A stretch of 64,000 nucleotides of DNA from Stigmatella aurantiaca DW4/3-1 (GTDB lineage: Bacteria; Myxococcota; Myxococcia; Myxococcales; Myxococcaceae). This document shows, in pieces, positions 24,918 to 31,652 of the stretch. How positions within the stretch are numbered: the first letter of the stretch is position 1; each line of letters begins with the position of its first letter. The position numbers and the translations under genes are program-made. The stretch is taken from contig NC_014623.1 of NCBI RefSeq assembly GCF_000165485.1, forward strand, positions 62,001 through 126,000, written 5' to 3'. Under the pieces are notes generated by a model. The model searched no databases and was not told where the DNA came from. It saw nothing but the letters and a program-made list of their open reading frames with translations.

Positions 24918-26102
24918 TTACCGCACCGGCACGCGAGGGCGGGAAGGCGCCTCACCGTGGACTTCTTCCAGCGCCTCGGCCACGGCGTCCATCTCCAGGC
25001 CCAGTTGATCCACGCTCTGGCGCAAGCTCGCGCTCGCCACGTCCGCGTTCGCCACGTCCGCCGAGCGCACCCGCAGCACCTGCGTGTAGAGGTGCTCCAG
25101 CGTGTAGTACAGGCGCGTGTGTTCGGCTTCCAGGCGGGCGGCCGAGGTGGCCAACTCCGAACGCTGTTTCCGCTGCTCGTCCACCAGCCGCAGCGCCTTC
25201 TCCAGCCGCTCTTTCACCACGGCGTCCTGCTCGGACGCCACCCGGGCCGCCAGGCCCGTGCGGTCCTGCTCCAGCCGGCGTTCATCCTCGGGAGAGTTCA
25301 GCGAGCGCAACTCGGCCTCGCGGCGCGCCAGCTCGTGGCAGCTCTTGCGCAGCCCCTCCACCGTCTGCTCCGGCTGGTGCACCACGTCCCGCAGCACCCC
25401 TGGGCCCGAGCGCAGCTCCGCCAGCAGCTTGTCGCACAAGGTGTTCACCCGCGCCGTGCGGGGATCCTCGGCCTTTTGGGCGGCCTCGGCCTTGCCGGGC
25501 ACCTTCGGCATCTCCCCGGAGACCTGCTCCGGCAAGGCCTCGGCCGCGCCCTGTCCGAGCCGGGCGCGCTCGCGCTCCCAGACACGGCCCAGGATGCCCG
25601 CCGACCCGCAGGCGATTCCAAAGGCCACGAAGATGAGCCACCACTCTCCCGAGACGAAGGCGGCCCCCGTCAGCACCAGGGCCGTGATCGCGAAGACCCA
25701 TCCCATCACGGGATTGGCCTCCTCCAACTGCCGCTGCCGTTTCAGGGCCCGCGCCCGCTGGCGCTGCTGCTCCCGCTGCATCCGCTTCAGGTCCCTGCGG
25801 CGCAGCCTCTTCTCCGGGTACGAATGGAGCTGGGCTTTCGTCTTCTCCGCCCATTTCTGCTCCACCCCCTTCAACTGCTCCTGCGCCCACCTTTCCACGC
25901 CCGCTGCGTGCCGCTCCGCCCAGGCTTCCCATCCGTGGGTTTGCTGGCGGGCCCATTGTTCCTGCCCCTTTTTCTCCATCTGCTCCCACATCCGCATCCA
26001 CTCGGCGTGGCGCTTCTGGCCCTCGGCCAGGGCCTCCAGCATGCGGCGCAGATGCCTCTGGAGGGGATGTTCAGGCGGTGGGAATGGAGGTTGCGAGGCC
26101 AT
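24918..26102 (-). CDS. Coiled-coil membrane protein with two transmembrane segments
   Basis: The 394-residue protein has a long charged N-terminal helix (about 20-125: W/E/Q/R-rich, e.g. KRHAEWMRMWEQMEKKGQEQW) and two adjacent membrane segments (about 132-172: VMGWVFAITALVLTGAAFVS and WWLIFVAFGIACGSAGIL). A C-terminal coiled coil follows (about 220-380), with repeated E/A/L/R heptads. Both termini should lie on the same side of the membrane. No enzyme motif is visible. A scaffolding or shape role is possible, but I cannot name the family. Confidence 0.82.
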   Translation of the reverse strand: MASQPPFPPPEHPLQRHLRRMLEALAEGQKRHAEWMRMWEQMEKKGQEQWARQQTHGWEAWAERHAAGVERWAQEQLKGVEQKWAEKTKAQLHSYPEKRLRRRDLKRMQREQQRQRARALKRQRQLEEANPVMGWVFAITALVLTGAAFVSGEWWLIFVAFGIACGSAGILGRVWERERARLGQGAAEALPEQVSGEMPKVPGKAEAAQKAEDPRTARVNTLCDKLLAELRSGPGVLRDVVHQPEQTVEGLRKSCHELARREAELRSLNSPEDERRLEQDRTGLAARVASEQDAVVKERLEKALRLVDEQRKQRSELATSAARLEAEHTRLYYTLEHLYTQVLRVRSADVANADVASASLRQSVDQLGLEMDAVAEALEEVHGEAPSRPRVPVR

Positions 26103-26233: not shown

Positions 26234-26722
26234 TCATGGTCCCATGCTCCTCAGCCAGTAGGCGGGCTCACGCGTACGCAAAGCTCTCTCCAAGAACTCA
26301 GCGAATGAAGAGGCGATCTGCCGACAATATGCAGGATCCGGCCACGCCTCGTGGTAGCCGTCGATCAGCGGATAGTGCCCGTTCTGCTGCCGACTCACGT
26401 CCATCAAAACAAAATTGCCATCTTGAACGTCGCAGATGGCATAGACCGATGCGGGCCCGTGCTGGTCATCGTCCTTGCGCTTGCCAAAAATAGCGACCCG
26501 CGCACGGACAATTTCGCCCAACGGAAGGATCAAGTAGGGCGAGTTCGGTAAGCGCTCGATCAGCTCAGCTCCATTGCAATGAAGGTAGAATGCACGCAGA
26601 TCTGGATCCAACTTCCAGCCCATGCGCCGCTCGAAGTCCGCGAGCTCGTCCGGATGTGCCGGCGCGTAGGGGAAGTGCTCGCGCGAAATCTCTTGAAGTA
26701 GATTTTCTATTTTCGCCACCAT
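26234..26722 (-). CDS. SMI1/KNR4 family protein, likely immunity protein
   Basis: The predicted 162-residue protein matches SMI1/KNR4 (SUKH) proteins. It has a helical N-terminus (VAKIENLLQEISREHFPYAPA), the signature DELADFERRMGWKLDPDLRAFYLHCNGAEL, a middle LGEIVRARV segment, a VYAICDVQDGNFVLMDV core and a SSFAEFLERAL helix. SUKH proteins are widespread immunity proteins against nuclease-type polymorphic toxins. It starts six bases after the stop of the lipoprotein toxin gene upstream, on the same strand. The start at 26722 is used; an in-frame TTG at 26731 is less likely. Confidence 0.88.
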   Translation of the reverse strand: MVAKIENLLQEISREHFPYAPAHPDELADFERRMGWKLDPDLRAFYLHCNGAELIERLPNSPYLILPLGEIVRARVAIFGKRKDDDQHGPASVYAICDVQDGNFVLMDVSRQQNGHYPLIDGYHEAWPDPAYCRQIASSFAEFLERALRTREPAYWLRSMGP

Positions 26723-26727
26723 GACAG

Positions 26728-27351
26728 TCAATCCGTGTAAGGCAAATCAGGCCCTATCCTGTCCCATGGAGCACGTCCGTCATAGCAGGCGGGATACTCA
26801 TCATTGAGAATCTCGTGAAGCTCCGGAGGGTATGGAAGGATGTTATTGGGATTTACCGGATCTCCACCATGCTTGAGATCGTGGACATGGTGCCCAGGCC
26901 AAGCGCGCCCTCTCTCGGTGGGCCAGCTTCCAAACTTCTTGCTCCAGTCCTCGCGAAAGGCGTTCCTGATTTTCTCCCACCGCTTACGCTGGGCCTCGTT
27001 TGCCTCTGGCGTCAGGATGGGATAACTGCAGCAGCAGTGTGCAATTGCATATCGGCCCCCGGATTTGACATATAACATCCCCTCCCAATCCAATTTCAGA
27101 TCCGCCAACCACATGCAACCTTTGAGCTTTCGCCCTTCGGTTGCACACTGCTGCTCGCAGTAAGTCCACCAGCGCTTGTTACACTGCCATGGACCGTAAT
27201 AAAATGTTGCCTTGAAGCTGCCAGCGGGAACACTCACGCGGGGGCCCTCCAATTTTCGTGCAGGCTGCGTGCTTGGGGATGGAATCACTCCCCCAGGCGT
27301 CCCGCACCCGCTGAGTAAAACCAGGCAAGCCACCTTCATTCTCAAGCCCAT
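26728..27351 (-). CDS. Lipoprotein with C-terminal HNH-like nuclease domain, putative polymorphic toxin
   Basis: The predicted 207-residue protein has a short lipoprotein signal (KVACLVLLSGCGT), a Cys-rich central part (WTYCEQQCATEGRKLKGC...AHCCCSYP) and a C-terminal WPGHHVHDLKHGGDP..PNNILPYPPELHEILNDEYPACYDG module. The GHH, DL-HGG and N-N-LP-P-x-x-H pattern is typical of HNH/GHH-type toxin nucleases. It ends LPYTD and is followed by a SUKH immunity gene. Cell-to-cell lipoprotein transfer is plausible in myxobacteria. The start could also be the ATG at 27339. Nuclease activity is inferred from motif shape only. Confidence 0.75.
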   Translation of the reverse strand: MGLRMKVACLVLLSGCGTPGGVIPSPSTQPARKLEGPRVSVPAGSFKATFYYGPWQCNKRWWTYCEQQCATEGRKLKGCMWLADLKLDWEGMLYVKSGGRYAIAHCCCSYPILTPEANEAQRKRWEKIRNAFREDWSKKFGSWPTERGRAWPGHHVHDLKHGGDPVNPNNILPYPPELHEILNDEYPACYDGRAPWDRIGPDLPYTD

Positions 27352-28214: not shown

Positions 28215-28290
28215 GGCACCATCCCTCTCACACCCTCGCCCATACGTCCATCTCTGAAGGCAGCAATCGAGTCACTGCTACCCGCATACC

Positions 28291-28839
28291 TTACTGGACA
28301 TCGAAGGTGTCAATCTTCCACCCCCCTCGAGGACGCGGCCGCAGCAAAGGAGGAATCACTTGCTCTGCGATTGCCACTGAATCCGTCCCTTTCAAGAGAA
28401 AAAGAATAGGGCCTGGGGCATGCGGAAGCGGATCTTCAGCCAGTAGGGTATTGAGCGTCTCAACAATGGCACCCGAACTAAGACTGGCATCTCTGTGGGA
28501 CGAAATTCCAGCAAGCCCTGCGATATCGCTGTACCGGATATGAAGCCGCTCGAAAAGTTCGAAGAACAACCTCCGATTCATGACGCCGAAATCGAAGCGA
28601 GGAACAACTCGCAGGTCCATCACCCATCGGGGCCGGACATCCTCAAGCAACGCCACGAACGCGCTGGTATTAGCGCGTGACATGTTGACCAATCCGAGCT
28701 GTGCGGGATCCGGAAAAAGAGAACGTTGGAGCCTGGGCTCAGAACGCTTTTCTCCAGCCTTGGAGTCCACCTGCTTGGCCTCTTCTGTGACGAGACGAAG
28801 ATGGGAGAGCGTACCCCTAGCCACGTGAAACCTCTGCAT
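28291..28839 (-). CDS. DUF488-like protein, overlapping partner of the dCTP deaminase
   Basis: The predicted 182-residue protein is translationally coupled to avcD: its ATG at 28839 lies inside the last 23 bases of the deaminase gene. The core reads SRANTSAFVALL....RWVMDLRVVPRFDFGVMNRRLFFELFERLHIRYSDIAGLAG. This follows DUF488 proteins (a HSN...F...L....VDVR..P.....FN...L...L...I.Y.....LGG pattern). The second DUF488 motif with Cys and His (CAE...CHR) is not present; that region reads PILFLLKGTDSVAIAEQVIPPLL. It may be an accessory or regulator in the phage defence system, or a diverged nucleic-acid-related protein. The role is unknown. Confidence 0.7.
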   Translation of the reverse strand: MQRFHVARGTLSHLRLVTEEAKQVDSKAGEKRSEPRLQRSLFPDPAQLGLVNMSRANTSAFVALLEDVRPRWVMDLRVVPRFDFGVMNRRLFFELFERLHIRYSDIAGLAGISSHRDASLSSGAIVETLNTLLAEDPLPHAPGPILFLLKGTDSVAIAEQVIPPLLRPRPRGGWKIDTFDVQ

Positions 28840-30631
28840 TTTGAAGGAGTTTGGCCTCCAACTCTGCATGGCTTCCTTTGCTAATATTCCAAGCGGTCTC
28901 CCATTCGGGCTCACCCATCATCATCTCTCCCGTCGCGCTGTCCTTGAGGTCGCGATCCTTCAGGAAAGCGCGCGCATACATTCTAGGGGCCACACCCGTA
29001 AATGGCCGAAAGAGCACCTTGCGCACGGCACTCTCCTTCTCTGAATCCTTTCTTACTGGAGCACTCGGAGGAATCCAGTTTTTTGCCACGGTCGTGATAG
29101 AGTCATCATGGAGATCCAAGGCTCGGCTCTTCGGGTAAGGCTCAATGAACTGAACCTCATCCACTCCAGCACCCACGATATGGCGCGCACAGTAGTGACA
29201 CGGGAAAGTCGTCACAAAAAGGCGGCAACCTTGAGTCGAAGCTCCCTGCCGCGCGGCGCTCAGGAGCACATCCATTTCGGCGTGCACTGCACGGCTGAAT
29301 TCCAACAAGCTTCCGATTCGGGATTTCTTCAAAGCTTTGCGAAGGGAGTCTTGCTGCGCATTGGAAAGCTTTGTCTGTTTTTCGATGCTCTCAAGCACCG
29401 TCCGGGCTTCACCGATTTTTTCTGGAACCTCATTGCCCTCGAAAGGCTGATGCTCGACCTCCGCAAGCACAGCCACAGCCCGTTTGAGAATTTCCCGCTG
29501 CTCGTCCTGTAACCGGGTATGCTGTTCGATGTCGGTCAACAACTGCTGAATAATCTCGTTTTGTTCTTGGGTATTGCTGCACCCTGGTTTCTTGCCTTTG
29601 GAGGGCTTGCGGTATGCACAGCGTTCATCTCCGCCGCTCTCCGAGAATCCCTGCCCGTAAACACCCCCGCCTGCGCGGGGAACTTCGTTGGCACCGGTCG
29701 ACACAATGTTACCGGCGGCGTCCGTCAGCGCAGCTCCCACCTGCCGGGACAAACAGGCGCTCCCCATCTGCGCACCGTAAGCAGCATGCATGGCCATCTC
29801 CTTTGTTTCAGGGCGGACCACGTCAGAGTGCGTGATGATCTTCACAAGCCGCGAGAGTTGCCCTGGGATGTCCCAATCTTTGTTTGAAGTACGCCCGTCT
29901 GACAGAAATTGCTCTTCGCTGTTATCTAAAAAATAGTCTGCCAAATGGAAGGTATCAGAGACTTTCTGACCGTGCTTTTCTTCCGCTTTCTCATCACGTT
30001 TCATGAAGCGTTGCGCATCTTGCCGCCCCGCATTCCTGAACTTGCTGATGAGCCGCTGACATCGCACTTCTTCATCGCAGACGACACCAATGAGGGCGAA
30101 GGCATTCCGATAAAGGCTTCGAAGCAGATGTGCCTCCGCCGGATGGCGAAGCGCATCAAGAATGTACGCCCTGCGCGCCCCATCGGGCGGCACAGGTGCA
30201 TCTGTTACAGGCAAGCCCTGTTTAAGAGCTCGCGTTTCTTTGATTTTTCCGATCAGTGAGGTCGCGACTGCGGTGTGATCGCCGTGTTCCTCCCGCATTT
30301 CATCGCCCCAGTTTTGCAACCACTTCGCGTGCTCCAGATTGTCGCGCTCGAGTGATTCGACTTTTTTTCCCCGGCGACGAGCCCACTCCGTGATTTCGCT
30401 CCGTGCTTTCAAGAGGACGACGTCAAACGCTCCACCGGATAGCTCCTCATCCCTGAGGATCTCTTCCAGCTTCTTTGCAACCGTGCTTGTCCCTGATCCA
30501 ACGTGCCCCACAACCGCGAAGAACAGCTCGTTGGATGCCTGCCGCTTGAGAAGCTCTTGTGCCCCGGACGCTGGACGCTCCGAAGCCTTCTTGGCCGTGA
30601 TGGGAACGACGGATTTTGCGGACATGGTCAT
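28817..30631 (-). CDS. avcD: Anti-phage dCTP deaminase (AvcD-like), P-loop plus deaminase domains
   Basis: The predicted 604-residue protein has an N-terminal nucleotide-binding domain with VVGHVGSGTSTVAKKLEEIL; the Walker Lys is replaced, as I recall for this family. A C-terminal zinc-dependent deaminase domain begins at CLSRQVGAALTDAAGNIVSTGANEVP. Catalytic HAE is in SRAVHAEMDVLL (about 450) and the zinc Cys pair in TTFPCHYCARHIVGAG, followed by EPYPKSRALDLHDD. This architecture is that of phage-defence dCTP deaminases, which deplete deoxycytidine nucleotides on infection. A Cys/Lys-rich and coiled insertion (about 335-445) separates the first strands from HAE. The start is 30631 or 30625; no clear ribosome site is visible. 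Confidence 0.88.
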   Translation of the reverse strand: MTMSAKSVVPITAKKASERPASGAQELLKRQASNELFFAVVGHVGSGTSTVAKKLEEILRDEELSGGAFDVVLLKARSEITEWARRRGKKVESLERDNLEHAKWLQNWGDEMREEHGDHTAVATSLIGKIKETRALKQGLPVTDAPVPPDGARRAYILDALRHPAEAHLLRSLYRNAFALIGVVCDEEVRCQRLISKFRNAGRQDAQRFMKRDEKAEEKHGQKVSDTFHLADYFLDNSEEQFLSDGRTSNKDWDIPGQLSRLVKIITHSDVVRPETKEMAMHAAYGAQMGSACLSRQVGAALTDAAGNIVSTGANEVPRAGGGVYGQGFSESGGDERCAYRKPSKGKKPGCSNTQEQNEIIQQLLTDIEQHTRLQDEQREILKRAVAVLAEVEHQPFEGNEVPEKIGEARTVLESIEKQTKLSNAQQDSLRKALKKSRIGSLLEFSRAVHAEMDVLLSAARQGASTQGCRLFVTTFPCHYCARHIVGAGVDEVQFIEPYPKSRALDLHDDSITTVAKNWIPPSAPVRKDSEKESAVRKVLFRPFTGVAPRMYARAFLKDRDLKDSATGEMMMGEPEWETAWNISKGSHAELEAKLLQNAEVSRG

Positions 30632-30848
30632 TGGGGTCAACGAATGTAGGTTGATGCACCGACATTTCGCCAGAGTGGGTTGGACCCAGCAGCCATGCGT
30701 GTATTTCACCTTCCACACGCATCGGCCTCAAGGACCTCTGAGTGCACTTCGCTCTACAATGTGCCTGTAGGAAGTAGGGTACGAATGTAGGGAAATCGAC
30801 CCATCGTCTTCCCCAGCAGGTCAATGGAGGATAGCACAACCTGATAGG
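30632..30848 (-). ncRNA. Leader of the dCTP deaminase gene, candidate AvcI-like regulatory RNA
   Basis: This 217-base region between trmN6 and the avcD start contains no convincing gene. In the characterised AvcID system a small RNA made from just upstream of avcD inhibits the deaminase. Here the region is the right size and place. It carries a direct repeat ACGAATGTAGG at 30640-30650 and 30781-30791 (plus-strand reading) and a hairpin CTACA-N7-TGTAG at 30754-30770. Sequence alone does not show an RNA; it could simply be promoter and 5' UTR. Confidence 0.35.
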
Positions 30849-31652
30849 TCAAGTCTCAGGTTGAACTGCATCGGAAGATTGACCGGAAGGCGGGTCCATC
30901 AGCGCGGCCACCTCGGGTCCGTATCCACCTGGGCCCTCTCCGTGGACGATGAGCGGCGGGCGGACCTCCAATCCCCGGTCCTGGTCCCGGAGCGCATGCA
31001 CCAGAAAGCGCGTCGCGGGCGCTTCCACCCGCGCGTGGATGAGCCGCAACGCCCGGGGAAAGAGCCGCGCCGCCGTGAGCTCGCCAAGAATCTCCGCCAG
31101 CCGGGCCGCCGGGTACACCAAGCTGACCCCTCCTCCCGGCGCCAAGGCATGGCGCGCCGCCGCCACCACCGCCGCCGCGTCACAGGCCAGCTCCTGCTTG
31201 GACAGGGCCCGCTCCTCGTCTGGGCTGCGCACCCCCGCGCTCGCCCGGCGGTAGGGAGGATTCGAGACCACGAGGGCATGGCCTCCCGGCGGCAGCAGGG
31301 TCCGCGCCTCGCGCAAATCTCCGAGCAGCGGGCGGACCTGTCCCTCCAACGCGTTGAGCTTCACGCCCCGCTCCAGCCGGGCGTGCACCGTGGGTTGCAG
31401 TTCCAGCGCGTCCACGGGACCCCGGTGGAACTGCCGGGCCAGCAGGAACGACACCACGCCGCTGCCCGCCCCCAGCTCCAGCACGGGCCCCTCCTGGGCT
31501 CCCTCCGCCGCGGCGAACGCCGCGAGCAACACCGCGTCCAGGTTGAAGCGGTACCCCTGCCGGCGCTGCACCACCCGGATTCCCGCCGTGCCAATGGCAT
31601 CCAGCGTCTCGTCCGGTCCGAGGGCCTCCAGCATGGGCGTGAGCGGGTTCAC
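30849..31652 (-). CDS. trmN6: tRNA1(Val) (adenine-N6) methyltransferase-like protein
   Basis: The 267-residue protein is a class I methyltransferase. It has YRFNLDAVLLAAFA, the SAM motif VLELGAGSGVVSFLLA, an acidic VDALELQ strand end and the N6-adenine catalytic motif VVSNPPYRR, followed by the S.(D/E)E.ALSK.E.....A block typical of the TrmN6/YfiC family. It should methylate A37 of tRNA-Val. Its GTG start overlaps the gshB stop (GTGA), so the two form an operon. The exact position specificity is by family resemblance. Confidence 0.88.
   Translation of the reverse strand: MNPLTPMLEALGPDETLDAIGTAGIRVVQRRQGYRFNLDAVLLAAFAAAEGAQEGPVLELGAGSGVVSFLLARQFHRGPVDALELQPTVHARLERGVKLNALEGQVRPLLGDLREARTLLPPGGHALVVSNPPYRRASAGVRSPDEERALSKQELACDAAAVVAAARHALAPGGGVSLVYPAARLAEILGELTAARLFPRALRLIHARVEAPATRFLVHALRDQDRGLEVRPPLIVHGEGPGGYGPEVAALMDPPSGQSSDAVQPET

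Follow-up and report, generated by a model that had tools for sequence, protein, structure and literature searches.

An AvcD-type deaminase gene and its overlapping, DUF488-derived partner gene: a probable two-gene anti-phage cassette in Stigmatella aurantiaca

The locus described here lies on the minus strand of the 10.26-Mb chromosome of the myxobacterium Stigmatella aurantiaca DW4/3-1, within a stretch of 64,000 nucleotides that we call the window. It consists of two overlapping genes and a leader (Table 1). The upstream gene, avcD, encodes an AvcD-type protein with a P-loop and a deaminase domain, as the first-pass annotation had proposed. The protein scores 423.5 bits against the model NF041025, 'anti-phage dCTP deaminase' (cut-off 400), and matches the PADLOC dCTPase profile at 6.7e-150 and the Pfam family dCMP_cyt_deam_1 at 2.7e-13. 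The N-terminal P-loop domain and both zinc motifs, HAE and PCxxC, are all present. Judged by these features, the protein would deaminate dCTP or dCMP and protect its host against phage. When AvcD proteins of the two branches discussed below were compared, no branch-specific extension stood out as a site for binding the partner.

The second gene, which we call the partner, was first read as an open reading frame at 28291-28839 (minus strand, 182 aa) that overlaps avcD by 23 bases. This overlap is correct for the open reading frame, but a different gene start is favoured. In the three closest relatives the partner starts at position -8 with respect to the end of avcD, with ATG in two of them (L003 and L004) and GTG in the third (L002). 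The window has a GTG at the same position, with AGAGGT as its ribosome site; no such site accompanies the ATG at -23. The reading frame at 28291-28824 is thus the better gene, and the overlap is probably 8 bases rather than 23. Across the family most partners start 4 or 8 bases inside the end of avcD, and stop-start overlaps of this kind couple the amounts of the two proteins. The second gene is not a chance reading frame, because dozens of genera have retained it in this position.

Table 1. Features of the avcD-partner locus, in window coordinates
Feature	Position	Strand	Basis
Insertion of 2.66 kb, flanked by a methyltransferase gene and pdxY, with the AvcD-partner operon and its leader as the only content	28227..30888		Comparison with congeners
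avcD, anti-phage dCTP/dCMP deaminase (P-loop domain and zinc deaminase domain), 604 aa	28817..30631	-	NF041025, PADLOC dCTPase, Pfam
Walker A-type P-loop GHVGSGTS of AvcD	30485..30508	-	Sequence; column conservation in partner-branch AvcD
HAE zinc/catalytic motif of the deaminase	29276..29284	-	Invariant in alignment A1, retained in both AvcD branches
PCHYC zinc motif of the deaminase	29189..29203	-	Invariant in alignment A1, retained in both AvcD branches
Leader of 217 nt upstream of avcD, long enough for a promoter and perhaps an RNA	30632..30848	-	Rfam, fold z-score
Partner gene, derived from DUF488, 177 aa; probable start at GTG 28824, with ATG 28839 as alternative	28291..28824	-	Start at -8, AGAGGT, family alignment A3
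Overlap of avcD and partner, 8 bases (23 with ATG 28839)	28817..28824	-	Family offsets typically -4 or -8
LSHLRLV motif at the partner N-terminus, predicted disordered; candidate docking strand	28789..28809	-	Conservation, pLDDT about 60
QRSLF motif (Q33, L36, F37), entry to the folded domain	28714..28728	-	Q in 95%, L in 73%, F in 80% of 55 partners
Folded alpha/beta DUF488-like domain, residues 41-177	28294..28704	-	AlphaFold2, conservation

An AlphaFold2 model of the partner built on 55 sequences (mean pLDDT 85.7) has a confident alpha/beta domain at residues 41-177, mostly above 90. Confidence is low for the first 40 residues, which are probably disordered. This N-terminal segment carries two motifs, LRLV and Q-x-x-LF, and looks like a docking arm. 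Residues L9, L11 and V12 of the first motif are conserved in 71-76% of the 55 partners, and the motif recurs in the TIR fusions described below. Elsewhere in the protein, D70, R72 and Y98 are conserved in 91-100% of the same set. Searches with the model returned no significant Foldseek match (best E 0.075 in the PDB and 0.012 in a viral set), and the best VIA-align match, at Z 7.5, was precorrin-6A synthase, with dual-specificity phosphatases at Z 6-7, values that lie within the usual background. These fold matches point to no ligand or function.

The first-pass annotation had called this gene DUF488-like and noted that the usual C-terminal Cys/His motif is missing. The likeness does not emerge from the window protein by itself, which as a single sequence yields nothing useful in NCBIfam, PADLOC, the PDB or Pfam (no family up to E 10), but it is clear for the family. 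Three basal partners that adjoin AvcD (L069, L071 and L076) reach 39-42 bits against PF04343 (cut-off 22.2) and match nearly the whole domain. In profile-profile comparison, the profile of 55 partners aligns with genuine DUF488 proteins at a probability of 93% (P 2.5e-7), and at 90-95% when random halves of the family are used. The negative controls gave less than 1% for reversed DUF488, AvcD domains and TIR, and 19% for the reversed partner alignment. Furthermore, five stray matches of the partner profile in whole genomes are genuine DUF488 proteins with the CHR motif. The remark on the missing motif holds well beyond the window: the C-terminal Cys and the Cys-His-Arg motif are absent from the window partner and from all partners aligned with genuine DUF488 proteins, basal ones included. 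The change is stepwise, from LC-E and CHR in DUF488, through LLG and DR or GR in the basal partners, to neither in the rest. Since the window protein alone falls below the Pfam test and the motif is absent, we call it DUF488-derived rather than a DUF488 protein.

Some further observations concern this ancestry. A partner adjoining AvcD at 1378-2058 of locus L177 (genome G085) matches the partner profile (8e-13) and the DUF488 profile (1.5e-12) about equally well, and represents a present-day intermediate linking the two families. In the genome of the window (G000) the DUF488 family model finds nothing, whereas it finds one to three genes in relatives of the same genus. A sequence search for a PDB structure of DUF488 found none.

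How often do the two genes occur together? A first search of the phylum with the window partner returned three clear homologues, each directly behind AvcD, and a search of plasmids returned one, in Rhizobium gallicum, in the same position. The overlapping pair is also present on two more plasmids from Alphaproteobacteria. Two weak first-pass partner matches (L005 and L006) proved unrelated, and an apparent AvcD-partner fusion (L031) is an out-of-frame open reading frame. We then gathered AvcD loci irrespective of their neighbours, 80 of them in bacterial genomes and 20 on viral contigs, and scored the neighbouring genes with a profile of seven partners and later of 55. The AvcD query alignment held only partner-bearing proteins, so the sample leans towards the partner branch; the contrast between branches is independent of this lean. 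A partner homologue lies directly downstream on the same strand in 63 of the 65 database loci of one AvcD branch, and in none of the 34 more distant loci outside it. Of the two exceptions, one ends at a contig end (L066) and the other has a truncated AvcD (L079). Adjacency is therefore not peculiar to this genome. The first-pass annotation had named such a restriction, or the lack of a DUF488 link, as grounds for refuting its reading, and on both points the results favour it.

The partner branch spans Pseudomonadota, Myxococcota, Acidobacteriota, Nitrospirota and Bdellovibrionota, and on a tree of 104 AvcD proteins the presence of the partner requires a single change, with a branch support of 94. 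The reverse search, from the partner side, covered 193 Myxococcota, 385 Alphaproteobacteria, 347 Acidobacteriota and 369 Gammaproteobacteria genomes. Without exception the true partners adjoin AvcD, including 10 of 10 in unselected genomes. The pairwise distances of AvcD and partner are correlated (r = 0.755, reached in 0 of 2000 shuffles). No phage in the phage collection has a detectable partner. On two alphaproteobacterial plasmids, pairs of multiubiquitin and ThiF genes lie within a few kb of the AvcD-partner genes (6504-8797 of L008 and 1-1381 of L009), possibly as parts of a shared defence island.

A comparison with congeners illustrates how the pair came to its present position. In two of them (G096 and G097) the methyltransferase and pdxY genes are joined, 14 bp apart, and in the window they are separated by 2,662 bp. 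The two genes thus came in together as one insertion and form a mobile unit. In another myxobacterium a tyrosine integrase-like reading frame (2200-3394 of L002) lies just downstream of the pair and fits a mobile element. A separate region of the window, 26234-27309, looks like a second insertion, because in the same two congeners the gene at 24918-26102 directly follows pdxY. This region holds a SUKH (SMI1/KNR4) immunity-like gene (Pfam 9.3e-21) by a lipoprotein-like gene of no known family, an arrangement reminiscent of a toxin-immunity pair.

In eight loci the partner is not free-standing. Its domain forms the N-terminus of a TIR-APAZ protein that is followed by a class I short prokaryotic Argonaute (pAgo), the arrangement of the SPARTA defence system (L007, L013 from Bradyrhizobium, L014, L015, L017, L023, L042 and L048; PADLOC profiles were run on the first two and the other six were recognised by their similarity to these). 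The AvcD gene overlaps or abuts the fusion gene in all eight, and TIR-APAZ with pAgo was found in no locus with a free-standing partner. On the AvcD tree the fusion needs two changes. The loci of a Rhizobium gallicum plasmid (4360-9383 of L007) and a Neorhizobium contig (6001-10964 of L023) are nearly identical, which is a sign of recent transfer; a frameshift splits AvcD in the former, and TIR-APAZ and pAgo form a single long frame in the latter. In Hyphomicrobium a separate Argonaute-like gene (2604-4184 of L051, minus strand), which matches the short pAgo of L007 with E 1e-26, lies upstream of a non-fused pair.

In the AvcD systems described so far control is exerted by RNA (PMC9455884). 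The labile RNA AvcI inhibits AvcD, which is released when phage shuts off transcription (PMC10511110). An Rfam search for an RNA upstream of avcD in the window gave no match, and the fold z-score of the leader is an unremarkable -1.5. Across 94 AvcD loci such scores do not differ between the partner and partner-less branches. Given the length of the leader and a fold test that does not separate the branches, an AvcI-like RNA could coexist with the partner.

Taken together, we consider it fairly probable that the locus is a two-gene anti-phage cassette, in which AvcD is served by a dedicated, translationally coupled, DUF488-derived control or docking partner that lacks the Cys/His site. The partner is made in step with AvcD, has been stripped of its motif, is co-inherited and is sometimes attached to a sensor-effector, and a control or docking subunit is the best explanation of this combination. 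It would bind AvcD about one to one, as a stoichiometric subunit, and so control or dock it. We suggest that it keeps the deaminase ready and senses or relays a signal of infection, upon which AvcD would turn dCTP and dCMP into dUTP and dUMP and starve phage replication. In the Vibrio and E. coli systems this role belongs to the small RNA AvcI, which the partner would replace here. The TIR-APAZ fusions would link the sensing of nucleic acid to the depletion of both NAD and dCTP. That said, sequence alone does not distinguish an inhibitor from an activator or a stabiliser. Counterpoints to this model are that the partner is encoded second, whereas antitoxins are often encoded first and in excess, that an AvcI-like RNA could act as well, and that the fold matches give no hint of a function.

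A narrower version of the control model holds that the partner is a protein antitoxin, which inhibits AvcD until its loss during infection frees the deaminase, much as in a type II system with the toxin gene first. This is possible, although we would not expect it to prove right. Known AvcD proteins are toxic and are restrained by an inhibitor, AvcI (PMC10511110, PMC9455884), and the small, coupled pair entered the genome in one piece. However, a coupled downstream position would not yield the usual excess of antitoxin, and the existence of TIR-APAZ fusions suggests that the partner serves as a port for a sensor and is more than a simple inhibitor. The same fusions would make little sense if the partner were a factor that helps AvcD to fold, assemble or remain stable and has no signalling role. 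Coupled translation and strict co-inheritance would suit such a factor, but related AvcD proteins outside the branch manage without it, and we regard this as unlikely.

We give still less credence to the idea that the partner is a second effector with an enzymatic activity of its own on nucleotides or nucleic acid, such as DUF488 proteins may have. It does derive from a family with conserved Cys/His residues, and D70, R72 and Y98 are nearly invariant. Nevertheless, the Cys/His motif is gone even from the basal partners, and the loci that do have a second effector have it as a TIR domain joined to the partner. With this motif lost and D70, R72, Y98 and LRLV kept, binding fits better than catalysis. 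The first-pass annotation had suggested control or a second effector; of these, a control or docking subunit is more likely than a second enzyme or effector. Finally, that the two genes are functionally unrelated neighbours, brought together by chance or local circumstance, has next to no probability: the window protein alone matches no family, but the conserved neighbourhood in 63 of 65 loci, the reverse search and the single change on the tree refute it.

If the control or docking model is taken further, one may speculate that one AvcD branch dropped or supplemented RNA control in favour of a DUF488-derived 'plug-in port'. Alone, this port would sense infection; fused to TIR-APAZ, it would let Argonaute recognition of invader nucleic acid trigger the depletion of dCTP and NAD together. 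We offer this tentatively, as an idea with less than even prospects.

In the papers that our literature search covered, the two founding ones on AvcD and the dCTP deaminases not among them, we found no description of the AvcD-partner pair or of the AvcD-SPARTA fusion. Papers that mention DUF488 together with a deaminase did so only incidentally, and those on SPARTA and deaminases were reviews or dealt with other subjects. The window partner is itself unannotated, as no PADLOC, NCBIfam or Pfam model catches it. This branch of AvcD probably has a previously undescribed protein control subunit. AvcD systems are known as RNA-controlled; with a coupled protein partner throughout a large branch, it becomes directly testable how such deaminases are silenced and triggered. 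Furthermore, the uncharacterised DUF488 family gains a context in immunity, and two nucleotide-depleting defences, the dCTP deaminases and SPARTA, are joined via one shared domain.

In comparison with known systems, the locus is closest in its enzyme to AvcID, the type III toxin-antitoxin system of the deoxycytidylate deaminase AvcD and the RNA AvcI. Both have a P-loop and a zinc deaminase with HAE and PCxxC motifs, but the window AvcD belongs to a separate branch and has a protein gene overlapping the 3' end of its own. The partner shares with DUF488 (PF04343) the N-terminal half of the domain, including the D-x-R motif; it differs in lacking the Cys and the Cys-His-Arg of the C-terminal motif, in its extra disordered N-terminus with LRLV and Q-x-x-LF, and in being tied to AvcD. 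Like a type II toxin-antitoxin system, the locus is a small operon of two overlapping genes, co-inherited and inserted as a unit, but here the toxin-like gene comes first and no DNA-binding domain is recognised in the partner. The likeness to SPARTA, which pairs TIR-APAZ with a short prokaryotic Argonaute, lies in the eight related loci, where the partner domain heads TIR-APAZ and a class I short pAgo comes next, whereas TIR and pAgo are both absent from the window locus, which is followed by pdxY.
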